Shown piece after piece: positions 4,651 through 8,252 of a stretch of DNA of 9,884 nucleotides. The position numbers and the translations under genes were made by a program. The stretch comes from Chloroflexi bacterium UBA4733 (GTDB lineage Bacteria; Chloroflexota; UBA4733). The DNA is taken from assembly GCA_002404055.1 (NCBI GenBank), contig DHIZ01000223.1, positions 25,866-35,749 of the forward strand, written 5' to 3'. Position 1 is the first letter of the stretch. The number at the start of each line of letters is the position of its first letter. Below the pieces are notes generated by a model that was not told the origin of the DNA, ran no database searches, and saw only the letters and a list, made by a program, of their open reading frames with translations.

Positions 4651-4797
4651 ATGAACAATCCCGCGGCCTACCTGCACTGGGGCTTCATCGTGATCTCGGT
4701 CCCTAACCTGATCCTGATCGCCGGCATGGTCGTGGTCTTCGTGGCCGCGCTCGTGCTGCCGTTCCCGCGCCACGACGACGGGGGCGAACCACAATGA
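4651..4797 (+). CDS. 48-residue single-span membrane protein, first gene of the cytochrome b6-like operon
   Basis: This small protein starts MNNPAAYLHWG and has one hydrophobic segment (about residues 12-37, IVISVPNLILIAGMVVVF and beyond), followed by PFPRHDDGGEPQ, a polar charged tail. It fits a single-pass accessory subunit of a membrane cytochrome complex. The strong SD at 4635-4643 and the ATGA overlap (4794-4797) with the cytochrome b gene show translational coupling. A role in assembly or stability of the following cytochrome is inferred from position only. Its size, one span and lack of any redox motif resemble the small subunits of b6f/bc complexes, but I recognise no specific family name. 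Confidence 0.8.
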   Translation: MNNPAAYLHWGFIVISVPNLILIAGMVVVFVAALVLPFPRHDDGGEPQ

Positions 4798-5438
4798 ACT
4801 CCAAGCAAGCCACCGACCGCGCCGTTACGGGAAGCTGGACCACGGCGTTGCGCGAGTTCCTCGTCAGGCGGCTTCCTCCCGAGCACCTGCTGCCGGATCG
4901 GCAGCCGACCTACGTCGGTTCCTGGGTCTACGTGTTCGGCGTGGTCGCCACCGCGGCCCTCGTCTGGGTCATCGCCAGCGGTGTCGTGCTGGCCTTCTTC
5001 GGACCGCAGTGGTGGCACGAGGTCGGCGTCGGTCACTTCGTCAACAGCCTCCACCTGTGGGCGGTGCAACTGTTCTTCATCTTCATGGTCCTGCACCTGT
5101 GGGGCCAGTATTTCGCTGCCGGCTGGCGGGACGGCCGCGCACCGACCTGGATGGTTGGCGCCGTCACCTTCCTGATCAGCATCGTGGCAGCCTTCACCGG
5201 TTACGTGTCCCAGCAGAACTTCGACGCCCAGTGGATCGCCATCAACGCCAAAGACGCCATCAACGCGACCGGCCTGGGCAGCCTTTTCAACGTCCTGAAC
5301 TTCGGTCAGATGTACGGCATGCATGTGCTGCTGATCCCGATCACGATCACCTTCCTGGTAGCGCTGCACCTCGCTATGGTCCGCATGCGCGGCGTCGTCA
5401 AGCCGATCGAGCGACCGGTGAAGGGACAGGTGGGATGA
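4794..5438 (+). CDS. Cytochrome b6-like (cytochrome b N-terminal) di-heme membrane subunit
   Basis: This 214-residue membrane protein matches the N-terminal, heme-bearing half of cytochrome b. Four hydrophobic helices are visible (about 45-69, 87-107, 119-137, 175-198). The heme ligands are H87 and H101 in helix B (H-x13-H, SLHLWAVQLFFIFMVLHLWG) and H177 and H192 in helix D (H-x14-H, GMHVLLIPITITFLVALH). The x14 spacing in helix D is the b6 type rather than the bc1 type. AAFTGYVSQQNFDAQW (132-147) occupies the Qo-side loop region. The protein has no cysteine, so the extra c-type heme of b6f (heme cn) is not expected. It lies between the 48-aa gene and the next membrane subunit, overlapping each by ATGA. 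It is probably a quinol-linked electron carrier in the cytoplasmic membrane; the electron acceptor is unknown, since no Rieske or cytochrome c gene is in view. Confidence 0.9.
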   Translation: MNSKQATDRAVTGSWTTALREFLVRRLPPEHLLPDRQPTYVGSWVYVFGVVATAALVWVIASGVVLAFFGPQWWHEVGVGHFVNSLHLWAVQLFFIFMVLHLWGQYFAAGWRDGRAPTWMVGAVTFLISIVAAFTGYVSQQNFDAQWIAINAKDAINATGLGSLFNVLNFGQMYGMHVLLIPITITFLVALHLAMVRMRGVVKPIERPVKGQVG

Positions 5439-6373
5439 GCGCCGTCGATCAGACCGAGTACTACCGGGGCGTGCGCATGGCCCCCTACGACCTCGTGCGT
5501 GAGCTGGTCATCGCGCTGGGCGCCACGTTCGTGCTGATGGTCGGCCTGGCGGCGTTCCTGTCGTCGCCCGACGTGAAGCCGGAGACGATCCAGAGCTGGG
5601 CCCAGGCCGACCCGGTCGACCTCGTCACCACCGCGGTGGGTGAACTGGCGGGCACGACCACCAGTTCCGGCTACGGGCCGCCCTACAACGATGGCTCGGC
5701 ATCGATCCAGAGCATCGGCTTCTTCGCCCCCCAGGCGTGGGCCGGCGTCCATTCGCCGGTCGACGCCGCGCAAGACTTCGTGCTCCAGCCGCTCAAGCAA
5801 GCCGGCGTCGGCAACCCGGCCCTCGCCGCCGCACTCGCGACCTACACGGCAGCCAACGCCAAGCAGCAGCAAGCCTGGTTGGACGCCGAGGGCAAGGCGC
5901 TCAAGGACGCCAAAGTCCAGAGCGGGCAGGTGGTCGTGGCGGCCGGTGACTACGGCCCTCTGCCGACCATGCTAACGAACTATCTGGAGCTGGCCCGGGT
6001 GGGCGCGATCGATGGCGCGCTCCTCAGCGACGGCCACTTCTATCAGACCGACTACAGCCGACCGCTGCTGTTCATGGGCGACGGGGGCTACCTGAGCGGG
6101 CTGGCCGGCGATCAGCACCTGCTCGGCAGCCAGTGGGGCATGATGAACGAGACGGGCAACTACCCGGGCCAGGCCTGGCTCTGGCTCTACACCCTGTGGT
6201 ACCAGGTCCCCCCCTACAGCGGCGCGGCCAACGCCGACCTGCTGGTCGTGCTCACGATGGCGGTGCTGAGCCTGGGGCTGGTGCTGACGCCGTTCATCCC
6301 CATCGTCAACCGCATCCCGATCTGGGTCCCGATCTACCGGCTCATCTGGCGGCGTCACTACGCAAAGAGGTAG
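5435..6373 (+). CDS. Atypical cytochrome b/subunit-IV-like membrane protein with a large non-membrane insert
   Basis: The protein has 312 residues. An N-terminal helix (about 24-43, LVIALGATFVLMVGLAAF) followed by SSPDV resembles the first helix of cytochrome b6f subunit IV. The Qo signature PEWY expected after it is absent; DPVDLVTTAVGELAGTTTS (59-77) and GYGPPYN stand there instead. Residues about 78-255 are a soluble-looking domain, with an Ala/Gln/Lys-rich helical stretch (130-160), GDYGPLPTM (171-179), FYQTDYSRPLLFMGDGGYL (202-220) and QWGMMNETGNYPGQAWLWLY (233-252). A second helix (268-290) and PIWVPIYRLIWRRHY close the protein. Translation is coupled to the b6-like gene by ATGA. I infer that it pairs with that subunit; the insert is unassigned and might bind another partner or ligand. 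The 3' end overlaps the convergent GrdB-like gene by 32 bp. Confidence 0.85.
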   Translation: MSAVDQTEYYRGVRMAPYDLVRELVIALGATFVLMVGLAAFLSSPDVKPETIQSWAQADPVDLVTTAVGELAGTTTSSGYGPPYNDGSASIQSIGFFAPQAWAGVHSPVDAAQDFVLQPLKQAGVGNPALAAALATYTAANAKQQQAWLDAEGKALKDAKVQSGQVVVAAGDYGPLPTMLTNYLELARVGAIDGALLSDGHFYQTDYSRPLLFMGDGGYLSGLAGDQHLLGSQWGMMNETGNYPGQAWLWLYTLWYQVPPYSGAANADLLVVLTMAVLSLGLVLTPFIPIVNRIPIWVPIYRLIWRRHYAKR

Positions 6374-7274
6374 CTCCGACAGGCGTCGCCGCCTCCAGGG
6401 CGCGCGCCAGGGCTGCCTCGAACGCCTCGCCGTCCGACGTCCAGTCGGTGATCGGCGGGTACGTCTCGCGGCGCCAGCGGTAGGGCAGGTCCAAAACCAG
6501 GCCGGGCTGTGGGGCGCGCCGCGCCAGCGAGAGCATATCCCGCAGTACCGTGCGTTGCTGATCGACCTTGCCCGGCTCACCCAGCGCGTGGCCGAAAGGC
6601 CAGTGGACGTAGAGCAGACGGGGCGCGTGCGCGGCAACGGCCACTTCCCGGACCAGGGCCAGGCCCACCGTGGTCACGCCGGCGGCCTCCACCTCACGGG
6701 CAAGCAGTCCCACGGACCGCGTGCAGATGGGTCAAGCAGGGACGAACAGAGCCAGGTCGACGTGGTCGCGCTTCAGGAGGCGGCCGACCTCCCGCCCCGT
6801 CGCCACCATCTCGTCCACCTTATCCGCCAGGCCCAACCCGTAGTGCCGGTCGGCCACCCGACCGATCACGCCCTCGGCCGCCAACTCTCGGAGCCGCTGC
6901 AAAGGGAAAACGAGGTTGATGTCGCGCAGGGCGTCGGTTCGGTCATAGCCCTGGTGCGTGATGGCCAGGTCGTCGGTCTCCGCCGTGCGGGGGATGACGC
7001 GGAACGTGTCGTCACCGGAGAGCTTGAATGGGCGGTCCTCTCGCAGGTGGACACCACACGTCGTGACCAGGGCGACGGTCGCCTCCCGAAGCGGCCGTTG
7101 CAGTGGGCTCCAGGGGATCGCGCCCGAGGTCCGGCGACGCAACTGCGGTAGAGCCACGATCCGGCTCACCCAGTGACCAAGGGCCTGGCCCCGCCCGGTG
7201 CCGCTGACCCAGCGTGAAAACGCCTCCATGCCGGGGTTGGCGTGCGTCCGCCGCGGGCCTGTCTGGTTGTTCAT
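6342..7274 (-). CDS. Glycine/sarcosine/betaine reductase selenoprotein B (GrdB)-family protein with in-frame TGA, probable selenocysteine at residue 181
   Basis: A single frame runs from ATG 7274 to the TGA at 6342-6344, interrupted only by a TGA at 6732-6734. Read through, it gives 310 residues. The N-terminal half contains VALVTTCGVHLRED (about 68-81), DDTFRVIP, TDDLAITHQGYD and INLVFPLQRLRELAAEGVIG. Then come LALFVPA, the TGA, and PICTRSVGLLAREVEAAG, giving U181-P-I-C184-T-R. This matches the redox U/C-x-x-C-T-R motif of the GrdB family. The second half continues with LLYVHWPFGHALGEPG, LRDMLSLA and DLPYRWRRETYP, typical of GrdB-like short proteins. Conservation on both sides in the same frame argues against a true stop. 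The SD GGAGGAGGT (7279-7287) fixes the start. It is last in the LUD-PhyH-GrdB-like set. Likely a thiol/selenol reductase acting on a C-N or similar bond; substrate unknown. Alternatives are a nonsense-mutated cysteine codon or a sequence error. Confidence 0.85.
6708..6727 (-). promoter_or_regulatory. Candidate bacterial SECIS-like hairpin just after the in-frame UGA
   Basis: In the mRNA after the UGA, bases 9-12 (CACG) pair with bases 18-21 (CGUG) around the loop CGGUC, which carries the G-G-U that bacterial SECIS loops usually show. Skipping one G extends the stem by U-G, C-G and U-A. The loop starts about 12 bases after the UGA, a little closer than in E. coli fdhF. The stem is short, so this is suggestive rather than proof. 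Confidence 0.4.
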
Positions 7275-7334
7275 GCCGACCTCCTCCGATCAACTCAACC
7301 GTCCGATGGCCTGATCACCCGCCGCCGTGCCGCT

Positions 7335-8252
7335 TCAGATCGGCAGGAGCGCCTCCGCTGGCGGATGGCGCAGGGGGTGACGCTCGGTCTGGATCACCTC
7401 GCGGGCAAAAGGGTTCAGCCGCTCCAGGAGTGCCGCCGACGGTTCATAGCCAAAGCGTGTGCGATTCCAGGCTGAGCCGTAGCGGTAGACGGCGATGCGC
7501 CGCTCTCCCGGATTGACCCGCCGGGCAGAGCCGTGGCAGCAGGCGTCCACGAACACGAGCGCATCGCCGGCCTGCATATATACCTCGATAGCGCCTTCGG
7601 TATCTTCCGCCGACCGTGCAACTCCATCCGCGCTCACTTGCCCCATCGACCGCAGGAAGGCCGGGTGGATGATGTTCGACTTATGCGAGCCGGGGATCAC
7701 CATGGTGGCGCCGTCGCCGGGTCCAATATCGGTAAACGCCATCAACACGTTGACCTGGCCGCACATGAACCGCCCGTTGTGGTAGCGATACTGCACCCGC
7801 TTGCTGCGATTGTGGGCGCCGCCGTGCAGAAAGATCGCCTCACCCGGTCCACGGAGTGAAAAGAAGTCCTCGTCAATGAACAACGGGCCATGGTGGTAAT
7901 CAAACGTGTTCTGCCCGCCGACGAACCGCAACAGGTAGTTGATGTAGCTGGGGTGATCAATCAGTTGCTCGAACGGCTCGCCTGCTTCGTAGACCTGCTG
8001 GTAGCTGATCCCCCGCTGCTCGGTGTGGTCCTCGCGCTGCACGTAACCGTACCAACCGTCGCGCGGCAGCGACCGCGGTATCTTGTCGACGCAGGCGTTC
8101 GCCGCCGCAACCAGTTCCGGGCTGAGCGCGCCGCGCAACAGCACAAAGCCCTGCAGATCGAACAGATACTCCTCGATGTTCGTCGGGACGCGAGCCTCCG
8201 GGAACCGGACCTCCAATGGTTTGATCTGATGGTTGTCATAGGTAGGTGACAT
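7335..8252 (-). CDS. Phytanoyl-CoA dioxygenase (PhyH) family protein with HxG in place of HxD
   Basis: This is a cupin-fold Fe(II)/2-oxoglutarate oxygenase relative of 305 residues, normal for the family. It has an N-terminal helix region (EEYLFDLQGFVLLRGALSPE, 27-46), then FLHGGAHNRSK (141-151) where the metal motif HxD is expected, TDIGPGDGATMVIPGSHKSN (174-193, the PhyH PGSHK signature), and FVDACCHGSARRVNPGERRI (234-253) with the distal metal His H240 and a basic site for 2-oxoglutarate nearby. The proximal motif reads H143-G-G145, lacking the usual carboxylate. ATG 8252 has a GGAG nine bases upstream. The gene lies 95 bp after the LUD gene and 60 bp before the GrdB-like gene, on the same strand. 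Hydroxylation of a small organic compound is the likely role; the substrate is unknown. Confidence 0.9.
   Translation of the reverse strand: MSPTYDNHQIKPLEVRFPEARVPTNIEEYLFDLQGFVLLRGALSPELVAAANACVDKIPRSLPRDGWYGYVQREDHTEQRGISYQQVYEAGEPFEQLIDHPSYINYLLRFVGGQNTFDYHHGPLFIDEDFFSLRGPGEAIFLHGGAHNRSKRVQYRYHNGRFMCGQVNVLMAFTDIGPGDGATMVIPGSHKSNIIHPAFLRSMGQVSADGVARSAEDTEGAIEVYMQAGDALVFVDACCHGSARRVNPGERRIAVYRYGSAWNRTRFGYEPSAALLERLNPFAREVIQTERHPLRHPPAEALLPI

Follow-up and report, generated by a model that had tools for sequence, protein, structure and literature searches.

The closest described systems to the gene reported here are PrdB, a component of D-proline reductase, and protein B of the glycine, sarcosine and betaine reductases (GrdB, GrdF and GrdH). 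Selenoproteins of the PrdB type, with a UxxC motif in which selenocysteine (Sec) comes first, have been in print since 2005. A Sargasso Sea paper, in its available text, counted 42 PrdB selenoprotein genes with UXXC (PMC1088965), and the accessible part of the 2008 GOS paper gives 235 Sec and 110 Cys forms for pfam07355 (PMC2398784). Selenoproteins had also been counted in Acidobacteria and Chloroflexi by a 2006 survey, as its available portion states (PMC1794560), while the terms "soil," "chloroflex" and "acidobacter" are absent from the main text, as available, of a 2026 review (PMC13188914). In Cloacibacillus porcorum MFA1, the GrdB-like selenoprotein FarB is proposed, in the accessible part of the report, to cleave the C-F bond of fluoroacetate (PMC10838667); hence, a GrdB relative has been proposed to act on another small electrophile.

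The gene described here lies in the window, by which we mean the whole 9,884-nt stretch of DNA that was analyzed. It very likely encodes a Sec-decoded, PrdB-like selenoprotein, and its in-frame TGA at 6732-6734 is almost certainly a selenocysteine codon. Compared by description with the marine PrdB selenoproteins in the available text of the two papers (PMC1088965; PMC2398784), it has in common with them the Pfam family pfam07355, a UxxC motif with Sec first, mis-annotation in metagenomes and the existence of Cys homologs; it differs in that the named relatives of its clade are Chloroflexi, Acidobacteria and Streptosporangiaceae, mostly metagenome-assembled genomes (MAGs). An original prediction, made from the DNA sequence alone, had called the protein a likely new selenoprotein. 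Given the forms published in 2005 and 2008, that claim is not supported as worded, and novelty is limited to the gene and perhaps its clade. Like FarB, the window protein is a GrdB-related selenoprotein with a proposed role outside the classical reductases and Sec as the putative nucleophile. FarB differs, as far as its available description goes, in catalyzing an anaerobic reaction and in belonging to a four-gene operon with a radical-SAM protein and an antiporter (PMC10838667); no such operon was seen here. The family is widespread in bacteria and usually mis-annotated.

Reading Frame and Family Assignment

Translated with TGA as Sec (U), the minus strand from 7274 to 6342 yields a 310-residue protein whose U181 (6734-6732) stands in the context ...LALFVPA-U-PICTRSVGLLARE... 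and opens the motif U-P-I-C-T-R. The features of the locus are as follows.

6342..7274, minus strand: selenoprotein coding sequence as proposed, 310 residues with Sec181; ATG at 7274-7272, terminal TGA at 6344-6342
6732..6734, minus strand: TGA read as selenocysteine, residue and codon 181
6723..6725, minus strand: TGC, Cys184, proposed resolving residue of the UxxC motif
6705..6719, minus strand: bacterial SECIS-type hairpin core, CGGTCC - loop GTG (6713-6711) - GGACTG
7280..7287, minus strand: GGAGGAGG, Shine-Dalgarno-like, 5 nt before the ATG, read from the sequence
7335..8252, minus strand: phytanoyl-CoA dioxygenase family gene (PF05721, PhyH), upstream, 60 bp before the selenoprotein ATG

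Mechanical ORF calling yields two ORFs, 7274-6732 (180 aa) and 6713-6342 (123 aa), exactly the split that the original prediction had foreseen, and the GTG of the hairpin loop doubles as the start codon of the downstream ORF. Because gene callers cut at the Sec codon, the selenoenzyme is hidden: its close homologs appear in databases as two short fragments, labeled "hypothetical protein" or, where named, "PrdB."

Both halves match TIGR04483 (PrdB), scoring 118.6 and 43.0 bits alone (model positions 20-144 and 151-236, respectively) and 178.6 bits when joined (20-236), so that the predicted single frame across the TGA is borne out by the 310-residue read-through. The homology to PrdB of D-proline reductase spans residues 55-269 of 310 (model 20-236 of 238), with the Sec inside the match. 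The window protein has approximately 35 extra N-terminal and approximately 40 extra C-terminal residues compared with PrdB, and it falls short of the equivalog cut-off of 300 bits. GrdB-type models (PF07355, NF040794, NF040795 and TIGR01917/8 were compared) reach at most 69.5 bits on the joined protein. Against GrdB, GrdF and GrdH, the window protein matches the C-terminal part of the models, is approximately 120 residues shorter than the 431-435-position models and scores 47-70 bits. It passes the gathering score of PF07355, the GRDB superfamily (43.4 vs. 22 bits), and misses the GrdB cut-offs of TIGR01917 (46.7 vs. 602.2 bits) and TIGR01918 (55.2 vs. 65.45 bits). By profile score, the protein is PrdB-like rather than GrdB-like. 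The earlier assignment to the GrdB family, which had pointed to U-x-x-C-T-R, presumably the GrdB motif, is imprecise, the nearest family being PrdB.

No grd or other prd genes were found among the window ORFs scanned. Partner subunits were also sought in 50 relatives' genomes, chosen from 101 with Sec forms: the PrdA model matched in none (0/50, in a search without a positive control), and GrdA was likewise found in none (0/50). The GrdA search was positive in a 51st genome, G138, which served as control and in which the GrdA match shares its contig with a GrdB-like gene. The absence of the usual grd partners had been anticipated and is upheld by the scanned window ORFs and the 50 genomes. Taken together, the PrdA and GrdA results make a role as a proline or glycine reductase subunit unlikely, and the name PrdB, which suggests proline fermentation, is thus not transferable as a function.

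Conservation Across Homologs

Used as a protein query, the read-through product retrieved 295 proteins, 120 of which were listed, one being the window's own protein. Among those listed, 116 of the 120 stop at the same residue, with [VA]P[AG] just before the TGA. The four without the common end point are P0026, which has Leu at the Sec position and an open frame thereafter; P0085, which reads differently near its end; P0105, in which Cys at the Sec position is followed by an unrelated tail; and P0109, whose tail differs. When the downstream half was used as query, 338 proteins were retrieved; among the 120 listed, 104 have GLLAR right after the first residue, that is, they start at the hairpin-loop codon. 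In a Chloroflexi MAG, two ORFs with consecutive locus tags (JOZ41_14860 and JOZ41_14865) represent the two halves of a close homolog. DNA was available for seven genome loci (L001-L007; one Streptosporangiaceae and six Acidobacteria, the latter including two Terriglobia and one Acidobacteriaceae), and in all seven a TGA occupies the aligned codon, P[IL]CTRSVGLLAR comes next and the frame resumes. In the eight-row alignment, many positions 3′ of the TGA do not vary. A chance origin of the frame is rejected on the strength of the end point shared by 116/120 listed homologs, the in-frame continuation in 7/7 loci and the invariant downstream residues; the locus thus has, as expected of a bacterial selenoprotein, an in-frame UGA flanked by conserved coding sequence.

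Profile A2, built for the clade, had matches in 83 of the 297 genomes sampled for G002's phylum (Acidobacteriota) and in 59 of the 296 sampled for that of G001 (Streptosporangiaceae, Actinomycetota), some of the matches being distant GrdB-type relatives. Within G002's class, few genomes carry the close clade (4/399). Most of the A2-matched rows that were examined have TGA at the Sec position, with a minority of Cys or other forms. The codon was examined in 148 rows, namely those of the window and the seven loci together with 140 of the 174 match rows, giving TGA 121, TGC 14, TGT 2, TCG 5, TCA 1, GAA 2, GAG 1, GAC 1 and GAT 1. Removal of three duplicate loci left 145 rows: 118 Sec (TGA), 16 Cys (TGC/TGT) and 11 other. 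One of the 118 Sec rows, L149 from G138, is a GrdB-type gene. The proposed alignment of homologs at residue 181 thus did reveal Sec/Cys exchange. The 34 match rows left out of the count comprise 19 from the phylum-G002 sample, 18 of them without an internal stop, and 15 from the phylum-G001 sample, of which one lacks an internal stop and several are weak GrdB-type matches; because the left-out rows of the former sample mostly lack an internal stop, the count is biased to TGA and the non-Sec share in the phylum of G002 is higher than counted.

In a tree of the 145 rows, the window sits in a nine-row, fully Sec clade (SH-aLRT 100) in which no Cys forms were found. The three residue states need 9 changes on the tree, compared with 26.2 when labels are shuffled, indicating that the residue at the Sec position switched several times in the wider family. 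Cys occupies the Cys184 column in 114/117 Sec rows. When L149 is set aside, nearly all of the 144 remaining rows retain, among other residues, D88, R92, D118, P124, E196, T202 and R219; these are candidates for the site around the Sec.

Other residues also occur at the Sec position: Glu or Asp in five rows (L049, L055, L096, L117 and L135) and Ser in six (L141 and L143-L147). The Glu/Asp rows adjoin Cys forms in the tree, and ten loci of this combined group have a same-strand upstream gene in common, whose representative (L096) is a cation-efflux protein. Three further loci (L084:1909, L089:1909 and L130:3409, from genomes G383, G416 and G225) contain two in-frame TGA codons three apart, read as PA-U-PI-U-HQSVAL, so that TGA stands at both the Sec and the resolving-Cys positions. 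In their best hairpin, CGCGCT/AGCGCG, the loop lies 17 nt past the second TGA. At E ≤ 1e-40, only G383 and G416 match among 24 genomes of their class. The available text of the marine papers gives PrdB only as UxxC (PMC1088965; PMC2398784), compared with UxxU in these double-TGA members.

A SECIS-Type Hairpin Downstream of the TGA

As a yardstick we used the detailed bacterial SECIS consensus (loop G, spacing) of the bSECISearch literature. In the window, the core stem begins 12 nt and the loop 18 nt after the TGA, which places a hairpin just 3′ of the UGA, with a G opening its loop. Taken alone, the window would reach six pairs by codon usage with a chance of 0.019, and its 45-nt RNA has a folding z of -2.56. 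In the same register, the 118 Sec rows form a mean of 5.47 of six pairs (at least five in 105/118), the Cys rows 3.62 (at least five in 3/16) and the other rows 3.18 (at least five in 0/11). Since the protein itself is conserved, the null consisted of 1000 synonymous-codon shuffles that keep every amino acid. The Sec rows' 5.47 pairs compare with a shuffle mean of 3.59 (sd 0.084, maximum 3.82), and all six pairs form in 77/118 Sec rows compared with 3.8 expected; the 16 Cys rows lie inside their null (3.27, sd 0.21, maximum 3.94). Because the rows are related, the shuffle sd should not be read as an exact probability, and the argument is carried by the effect size and by the contrast between Sec and Cys rows. 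Paired substitutions occur across the stems (CAGTCC/GGACTG, CAGACC/GGTCTG, CGCGCC/GGCGCG and CGTACC/AGTACG), and the first loop base is G in 114/118 Sec rows. Thirteen of the 118 have four pairs or fewer in the common register, some of them with other hairpins. The fixed register and the Sec/Cys contrast make these rows directly usable for testing bacterial SECIS rules.

Selenocysteine Machinery in Relatives

No tRNA or Rfam matches were found within the window, and sel genes were surveyed in the seven genomes of loci L001-L007. A match to selB over the cut-off was present in six of the seven, with selB of G001 in pieces. For selA, five genomes exceeded the cut-off, and in a sixth (G001) the gene, next to selB, is truncated by the end of the contig; selD exceeded the cut-off in six. 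A tRNA-Sec scored above the Rfam threshold in all seven; ARAGORN read the anticodon UCA in six of these and a tRNA-Ser in G001. G001, the nearest genome in the tree, therefore has a sole ARAGORN-read tRNA-Sec candidate that is called tRNA-Ser and only a fragment of selA; G007 lacks selA and a full selB, and G004 lacks selD. These gaps are likely due to incomplete MAGs. In four acidobacterial genomes, the selD matches themselves (L029, L030, L032 and L033) each contain one in-frame TGA and are probable SelD selenoproteins.

In the two phylum samples, selA was found in 51/53 Sec-form genomes compared with 141/244 others (phylum of G002; Fisher p 6e-9, uncorrected for kinship) and in 41/44 compared with 141/252 others (phylum of G001; Fisher p 5e-7, likewise uncorrected). 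Five of the 97 Sec-form genomes have no selA match. The "others" include family-positive genomes whose rows were not fetched as well as genomes with Cys or other forms only, and the latter also have selA (16/17 and 3/3 in the two samples), so that selA tracks the family broadly.

Alternative Explanations

An in-frame TGA could reflect a nonsense mutation or a sequencing error, so that a pseudogene or artefact shows TGA where a Cys codon belongs. A single window would not distinguish this from a Sec codon, and one homolog, P0026, has Leu at the position, but the end point common to 116 of the 120 listed homologs, the TGA and conserved downstream sequence of all seven genome loci and the conserved hairpin refute it, and we give this explanation practically no weight. 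It is also highly improbable that the UGA is recoded to Trp, Cys or another residue by a suppressor tRNA or an altered code. The tRNA-Sec of G001 is unconfirmed, which would fit such recoding; however, TGA terminates five of eight window ORFs checked, including the selenoprotein gene itself and the PhyH gene, whose listed homologs are mostly similar in length, and the UxxC context, the SECIS-type hairpin, the relatives' tRNA-Sec(UCA) and sel genes and the swapping of Sec and Cys forms in the wider tree all point to Sec. Alternatively, the UGA might act mainly as a regulated stop, with a functional 180-residue N-terminal product and the full form made only with selenium. A Sec UGA can indeed always terminate too, but a product ending at the TGA would lack the UxxC motif as well as the final strands and helices of the predicted fold, and the residues downstream are strongly conserved, making this very unlikely. 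The reading of the TGA as Sec, as originally predicted, is thus favored by the shared end point, the in-frame continuation in relatives, the hairpin and the relatives' sel genes.

A separate question is whether this Sec-containing protein serves D-proline reductase as a genuine PrdB subunit alongside PrdA, which would contribute the pyruvoyl group. TIGR04483 is its best family, and the source jgi calls many relatives PrdB. Nonetheless, 178.6 bits is far from the curated cut-off of 300, the PrdA model matched none of the 50 relatives' genomes (without a positive control) and no other prd gene occurs among the scanned window ORFs; we consider this identity as improbable as the regulated stop.

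Predicted Structure and Proposed Mechanism

A structure model with Cys in place of Sec (pLDDT 87.7, pTM 0.88) has an alpha/beta domain from about residue 60, preceded by N-terminal helices. Strand 174-178 precedes residue 181, and helix 184-197 follows it, starting with Cys184. A search for a close solved structure found none.

The UGA at codon 181 would be decoded as Sec by SelB and tRNA-Sec(UCA), aided by the mRNA hairpin 12 nt downstream. The Sec181 selenolate may then attack a small electrophilic substrate (a C-N or C-X bond, or a peroxide or disulfide), after which Cys184 would resolve the selenenyl-sulfide and a thioredoxin-type system could re-reduce the enzyme. With no PrdA or GrdA partners, the protein would be a stand-alone thiol-type selenoenzyme and not a D-proline or glycine reductase. 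We regard this stand-alone redox mechanism as about evenly balanced between right and wrong, the proposed reaction being drawn from the UxxC motif and from analogy with GrdB/PrdB chemistry. The broader proposal, held a little more tentatively, is of a PrdA- and GrdA-independent selenoenzyme that is common in air-living soil bacteria, split by gene callers and U-x-x-U in some members, and that catalyzes a reductive reaction new for selenoproteins. Identifying what the stand-alone enzyme acts on could account for some of the selenium that soil bacteria use.

Gene Neighborhood

The PhyH neighbor is 80% identical to a Chloroflexota MAG protein, which, together with the close homolog in a Chloroflexi MAG, suggests Chloroflexota as the probable origin of the window. 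No PhyH homolog was found near the gene in loci L001-L007, whose flanks are partly short. No neighbor common to the window and its relatives and pointing to a substrate was found. The PhyH dioxygenase and an oxidase-type neighbor fit the earlier suggestion of a probably aerobic host, which stays an inference. On the plus strand of the window, the ORF 5009-6373 overlaps a cytochrome-b-like gene (4794-5438) and then extends past it. A Pfam comparison at E ≤ 0.001 gave no family for this ORF. By eye, its 3′ part resembles a membrane protein; the ORF ends at 6373, and its 3′ terminus overlaps that of the selenoprotein gene, which runs toward it and ends at 6342.

Some clades of the wider family have conserved neighbors of their own, read here from one representative per neighbor family (L078, L158, L170 and L085 for the first clade). 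In a clade of the phylum-G001 sample (e.g., L078 and L158), 23 loci have a YchF-type GTPase gene upstream and a DUF6391 gene downstream (23 each), with a Pyr_redox-type gene further down in ten loci and a thioredoxin-like gene in seven. In another clade, nine loci (L051, L053, L057, L059, L098, L118, L122, L124 and L132) have a same-strand upstream gene in common, whose representative (L051) is an AhpC/TSA peroxiredoxin.
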